From a virus: a stretch of DNA of 64,000 nucleotides. Positions 26,729 to 32,817 of the stretch are shown in pieces (positions within the stretch are counted from its first letter, which is position 1; each line of letters begins with the position of its first letter). The notes under the pieces were generated by a model that worked only from the letters and a program-made list of their open reading frames with translations, was not told the origin of the DNA and made no database searches. A program made the translations under genes and the position numbers. Where the stretch lies: IMG/VR virus record IMGVR_UViG_3300030339_000003, positions 1 through 64,000 of that record. The stretch is one strand, 5' to 3'.

Positions 26729-27442
26729 TTAACCTTTAATTAATTGTTGGAAACGTGTTGAGATAATTGCATAATACAAATAAGGTGGGACGTTCTCATA
26801 AGCGCCTAATGAGAAACCTTCATTAACTTCTACCAACCCCCACTGACCGTTGATTAATCCCATATCAAAACTTCCTACGGTATAACCCCTTACCCGTAAT
26901 AACGTCATGATATCTTTAATAATAGGAATTAATTCTTTTGATCCATCAGAACAATAAAACGTATCGTTTTTGTAATACACTCGGCACTCGTCGGTAATGC
27001 TAGCTACGGCAGCAGAATAGATTTCAACCTTTGGACTAAATGCATCAAAGTAAAGGTTAGAAGTCGAATGCGCAATGTAACCGGTAAACAGTTTTAACAC
27101 TTTCACTGGCTTAATAAAACGAGGCAAAGTGGATTCGTCTAACTTACCCATCGTTGTTTTAATGATATCGCGGTGTAAATATTGCTTGAGGTAATCGGGA
27201 TAGTCGTTAGGGATAGGTAAATCTTTCTTATACTTTCTTAACGTGTGTTTAACAAAGTCAATATCGCCTGCCGCAAAAGCTAATTTATCAGGCAAAGACT
27301 TCCGAATGATTTCTTTACTCCCCACTAATTCAACAATAAGTTTTAATTCAGCAACATGAGCTTGGATATAATCCTTTAGTATTTGTTCTTCTTTATCTAA
27401 CTTACCTGTACCATGTTGTTCTAACCAAACCATTTTCCACAT
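26729..27442 (-). CDS. ATP-grasp-like protein
   Basis: 237 residues. The C-terminal block Tyr-Thr-Val-Gly-Ser-Phe-Asp-Met-Gly...Trp-Gly-Leu-Val-Glu-Val-Asn-Glu-Gly (about 191-212), followed by Phe-Ser-Leu-Gly-Ala-Tyr, is the ATP-grasp catalytic strand and loop as seen in DUF4343-type phage proteins. The acidic Asp, Glu and Asn would bind the metal ions. ATP-grasp enzymes join an acid to an amine or thiol through an acyl phosphate. The substrate is unknown; a ligase that modifies a protein or small molecule is inferred. AAGGAG precedes the ATG. Confidence 0.72.
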   Translation of the reverse strand: MWKMVWLEQHGTGKLDKEEQILKDYIQAHVAELKLIVELVGSKEIIRKSLPDKLAFAAGDIDFVKHTLRKYKKDLPIPNDYPDYLKQYLHRDIIKTTMGKLDESTLPRFIKPVKVLKLFTGYIAHSTSNLYFDAFSPKVEIYSAAVASITDECRVYYKNDTFYCSDGSKELIPIIKDIMTLLRVRGYTVGSFDMGLINGQWGLVEVNEGFSLGAYENVPPYLYYAIISTRFQQLIKG

Positions 27443-27452
27443 ACATAACTCC

Positions 27453-27479
27453 TTACCTTACCCACTTAGGGTAAGGTAA
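27453..27479 (-). terminator. Hairpin overlapping a ribosome site
   Basis: A perfect 11-bp stem (ttaccttaccc / gggtaaggtaa) between the 2H gene stop and the ATP-grasp start. Its left end overlaps the AAGGAG ribosome site of the ATP-grasp gene, so folding could lower that gene's translation. No U-run follows, so it is more likely a regulatory or stability hairpin. Confidence 0.55.
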
Positions 27480-27484
27480 TATGT

Positions 27485-27916
27485 TTATTCGCAATCACGA
27501 ACGTGTTCGTAAGTAAAGATGACTTCTTTACCAAGCCAATTAGCCAACTCAGTATTAATCTTAATTAAATCAAAACGAGTAGGGTCGTACACCAAAGACA
27601 TGTGCAATAACAACGTAGAATAAGAATGAGTATAACCTGCGTCTGTTAAGCGTCTGAATTCCTGTTGTAAGCCCACGCTATGCAGTTCTGCTACAATTGC
27701 ATCGCCCAGTTCTTTAAACCCAATGATGGTGGCTTTAAAGAGCACGTGCGAGTTAATATCACAACGTGGTTCATCACATTCTGATTTATCATACATCAGC
27801 GTAATATGAAACGGATAAGTGGTAGCGGGCTGTATGCTCAGATCGGTTAATGCTGTTTTTAATTGCTTTTCGGTTTCTTCAAGTAGGTTAACCGATATGT
27901 ACCCCAGCTTTGGCAT
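27485..27916 (-). CDS. 2H phosphoesterase (possible anti-CBASS Acb1-like)
   Basis: 143 residues with the two defining motifs of the 2H fold: His37-Ile-Thr39-Leu and His105-Met-Ser107-Leu, each followed by a Tyr-Asp. 2H enzymes cut or join 2',3' or 3',5' phosphodiester bonds in RNA or cyclic nucleotides. The small size and the phage setting fit both 2'-5' RNA ligase/cyclic phosphodiesterase types and the phage anti-CBASS enzyme Acb1 (T4 57B type). The sequence alone does not decide which. Its start overlaps the 187-residue gene upstream by 29 bases. Confidence 0.78.
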   Translation of the reverse strand: MPKLGYISVNLLEETEKQLKTALTDLSIQPATTYPFHITLMYDKSECDEPRCDINSHVLFKATIIGFKELGDAIVAELHSVGLQQEFRRLTDAGYTHSYSTLLLHMSLVYDPTRFDLIKINTELANWLGKEVIFTYEHVRDCE

Positions 27917-28451
27917 GTTGGTTCCTCAAATGTTTAATGGTCTTATACATAACATTTTGATTACGCTTTTGCTTACGGTACTTTGAACTTACCTTTAAAT
28001 ACTTACGCAATCCAACAGGTAACACCAGGCCATGTTTCTTTAACACATAGTCAATAAAGATGGATCTTGACGGAGCATTATTAAAGTAACCTGTTAAACT
28101 TAAATAAGAATTAAAAGGATTACCCGAATAAAAGGTGGGCTCTTCATCAGCCACTTTATTAACTTTCAGTTCCTCAACATCAAATGCAGTAATGCCGTCG
28201 GGGAAATAAGCATCGTGTATGTAACCATCGTCAGTAATATACACGTGGAAAGGACCCACATTAATCGTGGGCGTTAATCCATAGCCAATCGCAATACGTT
28301 CTACTAATAAAGCCATGACATGACAATCCCCACTGTTAATGATTCCAGGGATTGAAAGTTTCGACTTATTACCCTCAGCGATATACAATAATTCAAATTC
28401 TTGAATTAAGCTATCAATGATCGATTTGTATAACTTTCTTTTAGGGCTCAT
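27888..28451 (-). CDS. Unknown protein with possible Cys-His-Asp triad
   Basis: The ATG at 28451 is chosen, although a TTG at 28463 is in frame. About 187 residues. The block Ser-Gly-Asp-Cys-His-Val-Met-Ala begins a helix, and Gly-Pro-Phe-His-Val-Tyr-Ile...Ile-His-Asp-Ala begins strands. A Cys at a helix start followed by strand His and Asp is the layout of papain-like/transglutaminase-like hydrolases. This is suggestive only. The C-terminus is strongly basic (Lys-Tyr-Arg-Lys-Gln-Lys-Arg). The start overlaps the RNase HI stop. Confidence 0.55.
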   Translation of the reverse strand: MSPKRKLYKSIIDSLIQEFELLYIAEGNKSKLSIPGIINSGDCHVMALLVERIAIGYGLTPTINVGPFHVYITDDGYIHDAYFPDGITAFDVEELKVNKVADEEPTFYSGNPFNSYLSLTGYFNNAPSRSIFIDYVLKKHGLVLPVGLRKYLKVSSKYRKQKRNQNVMYKTIKHLRNQHAKAGVHIG

Positions 28452-28947
28452 ATCCTGCGTCAATCTCCGTTACACCAACACTTGCCGCTTTAGCAAGAAC
28501 GTCAACCATTTCATTATACTTATCGCCTGTGTGTGCTTTGACTTTGTGGAAATAGATTTTGTTTTCCTTAATCAAAGGATAAGCACGTTGCCACAAGTCC
28601 AAGTTCTTGATAGGTTTCTCTGCACCTGTTTCCCAATCAACACGTACCCAATTCTTACGCTTCCATCCATGAATCCATTTCATCAATCCATCTTTGGCGT
28701 AATTGGAATCAATATAGATGTCAAAGGTTTTGTTAGGACCAAATTCCTCTAAAGCTTTAATAACAGCTAAAAGCTCCATACGGTTATTGGTTGTCTTAAT
28801 AAACCCACCGCTTAATTTAAGTTCGGTGTTTTCATCGATAGGGATAACACAGCCCCAACCACCAGGCCCAGGATTAGGTGAAGCACTACCATCGGTATAA
28901 ACTACGATAGACTTATCTTTAGCAGGCTCTTCATATTTAGCCGTCAT
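28441..28947 (-). CDS. rnhA: Ribonuclease HI
   Basis: 168 residues. It cuts RNA in RNA-DNA hybrids, useful for primer removal. The catalytic acids are Asp19 (Tyr-Thr-Asp-Gly-Ser), Glu58 (Asn-Arg-Met-Glu-Leu), Asp80 (Ile-Asp-Ser-Asn-Tyr) and Asp149 (Met-Val-Asp-Val-Leu-Ala), matching E. coli Asp10, Glu48, Asp70 and Asp134. His139 in Ala-His-Thr-Gly is the usual helper. A short N-terminal extension is present. It lies in one unit with the DNA ligase. Confidence 0.95.
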   Translation of the reverse strand: MTAKYEEPAKDKSIVVYTDGSASPNPGPGGWGCVIPIDENTELKLSGGFIKTTNNRMELLAVIKALEEFGPNKTFDIYIDSNYAKDGLMKWIHGWKRKNWVRVDWETGAEKPIKNLDLWQRAYPLIKENKIYFHKVKAHTGDKYNEMVDVLAKAASVGVTEIDAGYEP

Positions 28948-28962
28948 AACGATCCTTATAGT

Positions 28963-28984
28963 TTAGGGGGCTTTCACCCCCTAA
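28963..28984. terminator. Intergenic hairpin
   Basis: An 8-bp stem (ttaggggg / ccccctaa) between the 534-residue gene stop and the RNase HI ribosome site. It lacks a minus-strand U-run, so it may be an mRNA stability or partial termination element. Confidence 0.5.
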
Positions 28985-28993
28985 GTTTATTGA

Positions 28994-30683: not shown

Positions 30684-30938
30684 CTACGCGAAATCGCCCA
30701 GGCGCAAACCGGCATTTAGATTAGGACTTTGAAGGAAGATGTATACCTTTTCATCACCCACGGTGCGGTAATCGTGAGGGATTTCATCCAACCATTTCAT
30801 TTCCGCTCTGCTTGAAACAACAACCAAACGGGTCAATGTTTCAAAGGTAATGAATTTAGCCACAGTACCCAACTTAGAACGAACTAAATTGATATCGGCT
30901 TCTTTACCAACAAAATGAACTTCAAAATGACTACCCAT
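30684..30938 (-). CDS. Unknown 84-residue protein
   Basis: A small soluble protein with a beta-alpha-beta start (His-Phe-Glu-Val-His-Phe-Val-Gly-Lys). It overlaps the DNA ligase stop by 8 bases, so it is translated with the ligase. A role in ligation is only guessed from position. Confidence 0.6.
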   Translation of the reverse strand: MGSHFEVHFVGKEADINLVRSKLGTVAKFITFETLTRLVVVSSRAEMKWLDEIPHDYRTVGDEKVYIFLQSPNLNAGLRLGDFA

Positions 30939-32817
30939 TGATCTTCCTTACTATATCGTTGATGGAGATTTCATTGTTTACATAATAAACAGGAATATTT
31001 AACTTTAATGCCTGCGTAGTGGATGCAGTTTCTGTGTCACTAAACCCTACAATAACACACTCTACACCTTTAACTACTCGAGGCAGTACTTCGATATCAC
31101 TTTTCAGTAACTGCTCTGCAATGAAGTTACGCGGCGCTTCAAACTTACCCGTTAATACGACTTTCTTATAACCACGAATGAACGTATCAGGACGAATCAC
31201 TAAAGCTGTCGCAAAGCGTTCAATATAACGCACACGCTTTTTATCTGTAAATGCTTTTAACAGATACATTGTTTTAGCAGGAGTGAATGTTTTCTTAATA
31301 AGTTCATGGTCTTTAATGAACTCTAAGAACTTTTCGATATTAACACAAAGATGACTGATTTCGTCTGCGGTTGATTTGCCCACTTCTTCGATATTTAACG
31401 CGTAGATAAATTGACTCAACGTCTTTTTACGGTTTTGACGAATGATCTCGTAAAAACGTGGACCGACTTGTTCCAATTCTAAACTATAAATATCTAAAGC
31501 AGTTTTAATGAACCCACGACCAGCCCACTCGGTAATGGTTTCACGACCTACGTCTTTAATATCCAACCCTTCTTTGCCTGTTGCACGAACAATGTCATTA
31601 ATGAATTGATCCGCACAATCAGCGGTATTGTTACAGGTTAATGTTGGACCAATCAAAGACACCGGACCACCACAACACGGACATACTTCAGGTAAACGCA
31701 TGCGTGGTGTGTCGGTACGATCAATGACTTCATCCAGATGCGGAACAGAGTCGCCAGACATAACAATACGGATACGATCACCTGCACCAATCTGCAAGCC
31801 TAACAACTTACCTGCGTTAAATCCATTGGCACGTTGGCATTTAGACCCAGCAATCATTACTGGTTCGTAAATAAGAGTAGGGGTAATGCGACAACGGGTT
31901 ACAGACCATTCAACATCTTTAAACCGCGTTACACCAAACAACGTATTGTATTTAAAAGCAATAGACCATTTCATTTCATCGCCCAAACGCTGACGAGTAG
32001 ACAGTTTGTTTGCTTTCATGACATAACCATCAAAAGGTTCAACCGTATTGGGTGCTTGAGTTAACAATTCTTTTTCTGTTACCAGGCGAGGAATGTCAAA
32101 CCCTTGATCGGCAAACCAATTACGAAGTTGTACACCGCTTTCAATTTTCAATAGCGGTAACACTTTAGGGTCGATCGCATAAACACTGCACGTAATCTTA
32201 CCCTTAACGCTAAAACGATTATTTAAACTACTGCGTAACCAGCCACTGATTTGATTACGTTGTTTAAAGTCTGGAGTATTCGTTGATTCTTTAAGATCTT
32301 CGATATCCAGATAAGTAAGGTGTGCTTCTGCACGAATATCAAACTTATCTACATCTTTAAGTTGTTCAATAAAAGGCGGGATATGTTTGAAGTAACTTAA
32401 CTGATGCGTGATGTTTTCACCTTCAGTTAATGTACCTTTGGTGACCAGGTGTTTTAACTTACCGAATTCATATTGAAGTTCAAGAGCCATACCGTCTAAC
32501 TTTGTTTCAATATAAACATCATTGTCAAAAGAAGCTTTTAATTCATCGTAAGCACCAAAGTCGTACGTACGATTCAAAGAAGGAAAAGGTCTAAAATGCG
32601 GAACTCTTTTCAATTCTGCTTTATTGGAAAACACAACGGTCGCTTTTTGATCTAAGTTGTATTCCCAATTAGGGTGTTCGGCCGCTAACGTATCAAAGCG
32701 GTTCTTTAACAGATCGTATTCGGAATCACTGATGATGCTTTTGTTCTCACCCCAAAACAATCCATTGTGGTAATCCAATTGCTCTTTTAAATCTGCTAAT
32801 GTGGTAAATGTGCTCAT
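30931..32817 (-). CDS. ligA: NAD+-dependent DNA ligase
   Basis: 628 residues. It seals nicks using NAD+. The Ia domain carries Asp-Ser-Glu-Tyr-Asp (31-35). The adenylated lysine is Lys106 in Thr-Lys-Leu-Asp-Gly. A four-Cys zinc finger (Cys379, Cys382, Cys395, Cys401) is followed by a helix-hairpin-helix region and a C-terminal BRCT-like domain (about 555-628, starting Lys-Lys-Val-Val-Leu-Thr-Gly-Lys). All LigA domains are present in a protein somewhat shorter than E. coli LigA (671). It lies in one unit with a HAD phosphatase, an RNase HI gene and a 2H enzyme. Confidence 0.95.
   Translation of the reverse strand: MSTFTTLADLKEQLDYHNGLFWGENKSIISDSEYDLLKNRFDTLAAEHPNWEYNLDQKATVVFSNKAELKRVPHFRPFPSLNRTYDFGAYDELKASFDNDVYIETKLDGMALELQYEFGKLKHLVTKGTLTEGENITHQLSYFKHIPPFIEQLKDVDKFDIRAEAHLTYLDIEDLKESTNTPDFKQRNQISGWLRSSLNNRFSVKGKITCSVYAIDPKVLPLLKIESGVQLRNWFADQGFDIPRLVTEKELLTQAPNTVEPFDGYVMKANKLSTRQRLGDEMKWSIAFKYNTLFGVTRFKDVEWSVTRCRITPTLIYEPVMIAGSKCQRANGFNAGKLLGLQIGAGDRIRIVMSGDSVPHLDEVIDRTDTPRMRLPEVCPCCGGPVSLIGPTLTCNNTADCADQFINDIVRATGKEGLDIKDVGRETITEWAGRGFIKTALDIYSLELEQVGPRFYEIIRQNRKKTLSQFIYALNIEEVGKSTADEISHLCVNIEKFLEFIKDHELIKKTFTPAKTMYLLKAFTDKKRVRYIERFATALVIRPDTFIRGYKKVVLTGKFEAPRNFIAEQLLKSDIEVLPRVVKGVECVIVGFSDTETASTTQALKLNIPVYYVNNEISINDIVRKING

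Follow-up and report, generated by a model that had tools for sequence, protein, structure and literature searches.

A divergent Acb1-family 2H phosphoesterase and an overlapping predicted Cys-His-Asp hydrolase in a putative nucleus-forming jumbo phage

The cyclic nucleotide cAAA is the activator of NucC. Acb1 of phage T4 cleaves cAAA as well as 3'3'-cGAMP, and deletion of acb1 impairs T4 more than 300-fold under CBASS (PMC9117128). The pocket of T4 Acb1 takes di- and trinucleotides only (PMC9117128). In the T4 and FBB1 enzymes the catalytic tetrad is composed of H44, T46, H113 and T115, the bases are stacked by Y12, W74, F107 and W147, adenine is contacted by E141 and a C-terminal lid is present (Hobbs et al. 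2022, PMC9117128). Nucleus-forming phages shield their DNA, yet type III CRISPR with NucC acts on one of them, PCH45 (PMC13282480). A 2026 review names Tad1 as the sole anti-defence protein so far described for jumbo phages (PMC13282480).

The window analyzed here covers the opening 64 kb of a virus record with 231,366 bases (G000). Two overlapping open reading frames on its minus strand, proposed in the initial annotation, were confirmed. Gene A (27485-27916) encodes an Acb1-like 2H phosphoesterase of 143 amino acids and gene B (27888-28451) a predicted Cys-His-Asp hydrolase of 187 amino acids. The ATG at 28451 was taken as the start codon of gene B, with a TTG at 28463 as the alternative. 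This start overlaps by 11 nt the end of the RNase H gene situated directly upstream on the same strand (28441-28947; Pfam RNase_H, E 1.9e-40), whose identity is also supported by synteny. The end of B and the start of A overlap by 29 nt (27888-27916, minus strand), and a Shine-Dalgarno-like AGGA precedes the start of A. Just past the stop codon of A there is an intergenic hairpin (27451-27479, minus strand), beyond which lies a minus-strand gene for an R2K-clade ATP-grasp ligase of 237 amino acids (26729-27442; R2K_2, PF18299, E 4e-13), whose locus is conserved in relatives. A second strong intergenic hairpin of 11 pairs (28960-28987) is situated just upstream of the RNase H gene, so that the two hairpins bracket the RNase H-B-A unit. 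An NAD-dependent DNA ligase-like protein is encoded further upstream (30931-32817, minus strand), at the position of the annotated ligase in relatives. No near relative emerged when 20 kb were compared with phage records by megablast, and neither gene A nor gene B was matched in PADLOC or NCBIfam.

By sequence and predicted fold, gene A is a 2H phosphoesterase and a divergent member of the Acb1 family. It passes the Pfam Acb1 model (PF23474) with 42.2 bits (E 8.4e-11, cut-off 27) and matches phrog_755 with 68 bits, while the Pfam LigT model (LigT_PEase, PF02834) stays far below its cut-off (12.4 bits against 23.3). Both His-x-Thr/Ser motifs attributed earlier to the 143-residue protein are present, as H37-I-T39 and H105-M-S107, and are no chance pattern. 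Tblastn with A matched 91 phage records, none with more than 60% identity; the best were RisingSun (40%) and EL (38%), and among the matches listed nearly all were jumbo phages. A profile of the A family built without T4 detected the PDB Acb1 entry 9q2g with E 2e-5, or 1.5e-9 with 17 sequences, and the 17-sequence profile also detected FBB1 Acb1 (7t26, E 1.3e-6). LigT and CPDase entries were absent from both PDB match lists of these T4-free profiles. Alignment of the A profile to T4 gp57B by hhalign gave E 1.5e-7 and a probability of 94%, and plain BLASTP of A against T4 Acb1 found no similarity. PF23474 scored above its cut-off in 21 of 24 records, a count which gives no estimate of prevalence as most of the records were fetched by homology to A. 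The family assignment itself is not new, since databases already carry relatives under the name Acb1. An Acb1 profile including T4 also matched the portal protein of Pam3 in its C-terminal part (PDB 8hds, E 1.5e-5), which suggests a 2H-like domain built into that protein.

The AlphaFold2 model of A, made from 17 sequences, has a pLDDT of 88.2 and a pTM of 0.81. In a Foldseek search against the PDB, ranks 1 to 5 were all Acb1 chains, led by Acb1 of Burkholderia phage BCSR5 (9q2g; TM 0.82, E 4.5e-7) and of FBB1 (7t26; E 6.7e-7). The next fold match was the Arabidopsis cyclic nucleotide phosphodiesterase 1jh6 (E 5e-5), and LigT appeared from rank 13 (E. coli LigT 5ldi, E 1.5e-3). Structure comparison with Acb1 and with the 2H ligases had been set in advance as the refuting test of the suggested link to Acb1; it placed the fold nearer to Acb1 (TM 0.82) than to LigT (0.52-0.59), and together with the Pfam score it supports that link at the level of family and fold. 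In BFVD the best match to the model was the RisingSun 'Anti-CBASS protein Acb1' (TM 0.93). A thus shares the 2H superfamily fold and the two His-x-Thr/Ser motifs with LigT/ThpR and the 2',3'-cyclic nucleotide phosphodiesterases, but differs from LigT in its lower fold score and in the Pfam result. With Acb1 (T4 gp57B; FBB1 7t26/7t27; BCSR5 9q2g) it has in common the compact 2H fold with its HxT/HxS tetrad, the size, the phage origin and the Pfam score above cut-off.

The tetrad is intact in A, where H37, T39, H105 and S107 align to H44, T46, H113 and T115, and the chemistry of Acb1 is therefore expected to be conserved. The aromatic positions Y12 and F107 are kept as Y6 and Y99. A is 17% identical to the solved Acb1 structures, and it differs from Acb1 in its genomic setting and in carrying glycine (G71) in place of W74. 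E141 aligns to R140, in a C-terminal region where the alignment is uncertain, and A has no C-terminal lid bearing W147. W74 and W147 are likewise missing from each of the six jumbo-phage homologues in the residue alignment. These contacts and the lid are features of the T4/FBB1 branch, and PF23474 also has members that lack them. Hence the claim made for A is one of family membership and not of identical specificity, and the known substrate range of Acb1 is not transferable to the jumbo-phage homologues. The lid and the stacking tryptophan close the T4/FBB1 pocket, which in T4 Acb1 accepts di- and trinucleotides only (PMC9117128), and their loss in the jumbo-phage proteins compared would fit an open pocket in a ring nuclease for the cA4 or cA6 of type III CRISPR, rather than a CBASS enzyme, in phages which type III CRISPR does reach (PMC13282480). 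This is distinctly unlikely in our estimate, as the lost contacts may simply stand for different contacts or weak activity, and the C-terminal alignment of A is uncertain.

The genomic position of A was compared in related phages. In EL, RisingSun and Aphrodite1 the Acb1-like 2H gene lies downstream of an NAD-dependent DNA ligase and an RNase H gene, as it does in the window, where the DNA ligase-like gene anchors the synteny. Each of the three reference phages with this locus in the comparison thus carries the gene at a syntenic place. In three other viral (metagenomic) contigs (L008, L010 and L011) the order B, 2H gene, R2K ligase, p281, p142 is kept, and the two of them which extend further upstream also keep the ligase-p84-p534-RNase H order; homologues of the DNA ligase-like protein are present in L008 and L011. 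The three contigs have a gene of 192-198 amino acids between A and the R2K ligase, and the window has a 192-amino-acid gene after the ligase. As the 2H gene sits within a DNA ligase-RNase H block which EL-like phages have conserved, RNase H-B-A is no accessory island. The description of the pair as part of an 'early accessory unit' was abandoned: promoter-like sites occur at a frequency no higher than in shuffled sequence, and neither promoter nor expression evidence speaks for early transcription. In EL, the slot which B occupies in the window, directly upstream of the 2H gene, is taken by a DHH-type phosphoesterase, gp125 (L002:4512-5750), and the same arrangement is seen in two EL-like contigs (G004:C1:197639-197908 and G009:C1:83153-83473). 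There, signal degradation could proceed in two steps, through a 2H cyclic-nucleotide enzyme and its DHH neighbour. The DHH phosphoesterase adjoining the 2H gene of EL was not detected in the present genome.

Residence in a conserved RNase H/DNA ligase block, and not in a variable anti-defence island, also fits a housekeeping role on RNA ends, in which A would be an RNA-end healing 2',3'-cyclic phosphodiesterase repairing RNA cut by host toxins. Iyer et al. (2021, PMC7824862) attributed an RNA-repair role to the 2H proteins of jumbo phages, which would heal 2',3'-cyclic phosphates for RNA ligases. The PHROG label of phrog_755 is 'RNA ligase', the Arabidopsis phosphodiesterase is the fold match which follows Acb1, and RNase H is encoded nearby. 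Nevertheless, no CPDase or LigT comes as near to A in fold and profile as Acb1 does, and the companion RNA ligases were not detected: PF09414 and PF09511 had no match in this genome, which may be incomplete, while T4 and GAP32 matched clearly, in a search that covered these two families. Among the EL-like relatives the sole trace of an RNA ligase was a sub-cut-off match inside the DNA ligase of EL. The lack of a match to two Rnl-type RNA-ligase families weakens the repair role, which is considered rather unlikely.

Gene B most likely encodes a Cys-His-Asp hydrolase of a jumbo-phage family. It matches two PHROG families without an assigned function, phrog_6870 (E 4.4e-6) and phrog_23563 (E 0.0048), and belongs with phrog_6870 by a shared profile and by the conserved cysteine, histidine and aspartic acid, with the same GDC...H...D motif pattern as the jumbo-phage proteins of both families. 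Genes related to B are carried by OBP, Desertfox and other Erwinia phages, Moabite, Totoro, KpLz-2_45, AerS_266, phiKT1019, VP4B, Aphrodite1 and others, nearly all of them jumbo phages. Residue conservation analysis of 20 aligned members (13-45% identity) showed that C43, D80 and G86 are invariant and that N39, G41, A47, H69 and P145 are nearly so. H69 is kept in 19 of the 20, the exception being a Totoro paralogue with tyrosine, and this conservation of the putative triad argues against a chance motif and supports the Cys-His-Asp assignment. The papain-like order ascribed to these residues in the initial annotation stood less well. The order and spacing of Cys, His and Asp do resemble those of papain/transglutaminase-like cysteine enzymes (Tox-PL-2, YunG-like, RickCE and PDB 2hly), and the H-x-W-x-E...D block resembles that of 2hly, but all the matches are below significance (Tox-PL-2 0.011, phage YunG-like 0.013, PDB 2hly 0.097, RickCE 0.11), so membership in that group is not established. 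Profiles of B found nothing significant among solved structures, and the AlphaFold2 model, made from four close sequences, reached a pLDDT of 41.5 and was not used for a fold search. Tblastn did not find gene B in plasmids, and patterns of its close relatives found nothing in 84,980 bacterial and archaeal genomes. A weak B match in the contig L007 was judged spurious, as no fitting open reading frame exists on that strand. Some B-family proteins of Vibrio jumbo phages are larger, with 380-434 amino acids (L055:2920-4224, L037:4867-6009 and L056:1832-2989), and in VP4B there is a further partial match, a hint that the domain may have been duplicated. Two B-family copies lie close together in phiKT1019 and in Aphrodite1.

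The arrangement of the two genes is closely kept where both occur together. The 29-nt overlap is identical in length in the three pair-carrying contigs, which have a similar AGGAACCA ahead of the start of A. B is 44-45% identical between the window and these contigs, and the excess of third-position changes in the reading frames of both A and B shows that both are maintained as proteins. The hairpin after A is also common to the four genomes, as a CCTTAC...GTAAGG stem. Within the window this pattern occurs only 3' of A, as two overlapping matches against a chance expectation of 0.03, and no T-run follows it on the minus strand. From the conserved overlap, translational coupling of B and A is likely, and overlap and closing hairpin in four divergent genomes point at least to their co-expression.

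Outside these genomes the two families part. EL, RisingSun and six EL-like contigs have A but no B, B-family genes exist without any Acb1 match in Totoro and KpLz-2_45, and they lie far from the Acb1-like gene in Aphrodite1, phiKT1019 and AerS_266. The pair is therefore the feature of one sub-lineage; among the phrog_6870 and phrog_23563 members seen, only B and its three closest relatives overlap an Acb1-like gene. Most likely, B has become part, in this sub-lineage, of an RNase H-B-A unit with coupled translation. A joint role of B and A is speculative. None of the B relatives in OBP, Desertfox, Moabite, VP4B, Totoro, KpLz-2_45 and AerS_266 is annotated beside a 2H gene, and this, along with the separate occurrence of both genes, tips the balance slightly towards A and B being functionally unrelated and merely sharing a transcript here, against which stand the identical overlap and closing hairpin in four divergent genomes. 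B might instead work with the neighbouring R2K ligase, so that on a host protein an amide bond is made by one enzyme and broken by the other. Acyl and amide bonds are the usual targets of Cys-His-Asp enzymes. The R2K ligase is found in the same locus in the three contigs, and R2K enzymes are predicted peptide ligases (PMC7824862). Such a partnership is unlikely, since the association is documented for this sub-lineage, the one examined for R2K, and since the window and its relatives are not alike in the order of genes around the ligase.

EL has been listed among the chimallin-encoding phages (PMC10299810). A single phiKZ chimallin query and a five-sequence ChmA profile found no match in the present genome. 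The ChmA profile did detect the EL homologue (E 4.8e-6), and this EL nuclear-shell protein in turn matched G000:C1:126825-128720, outside the window, with E 1.4e-88 and 33% identity, which marks the earlier blanks as a problem of sensitivity. From this divergent EL-type homologue we infer that the phage builds a nucleus and belongs to the Chimalliviridae. RisingSun and Aphrodite1, like EL, encode nuclear-shell homologues in addition to the Acb1-like gene.

In such a phage the protein shell would shield the DNA and give no protection against cytoplasmic alarms raised by RNA sensing or CBASS, and a destroyer of alarms fits this situation for that reason. Under the favoured explanation A, as a divergent Acb1, is a metal-independent phosphodiesterase of the 2H type, and its two histidines would promote, by acid-base catalysis, the attack of the ribose 2'-OH on the 3'-5' bond. 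It would thereby linearise cyclic oligonucleotide alarms, namely the cyclic di- and trinucleotides of CBASS and possibly the cA3 of type III CRISPR. We consider this anti-signalling role probable. The analysis establishes the family, the fold, the catalytic tetrad, the syntenic conservation and the presence of a nuclear-shell homologue; the substrate, the cytoplasmic site of action and the anti-defence role of A are inferred, the last of these being plausible. No record of an assayed member of the jumbo-phage Acb1-like clade was found. A wider and highly improbable possibility is a two-enzyme anti-signalling cassette, in which an Acb1 branch without the lid, fixed among nucleus-forming phages of the EL type, would cleave larger or different rings than T4 Acb1 (e.g. 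cA4/cA6 of type III CRISPR) and the coupled B would attack another component of the same pathway, for instance a conjugate with an acyl or isopeptide bond.

With gene B comes a conserved enzyme family, so far unstudied, whose predicted catalytic triad is well defined, and the missing lid and tryptophan of A offer a clear, testable prediction about its substrate. If A is active, it would explain how phages with shielded DNA handle the nucleotide alarms which remain in the cytoplasm.
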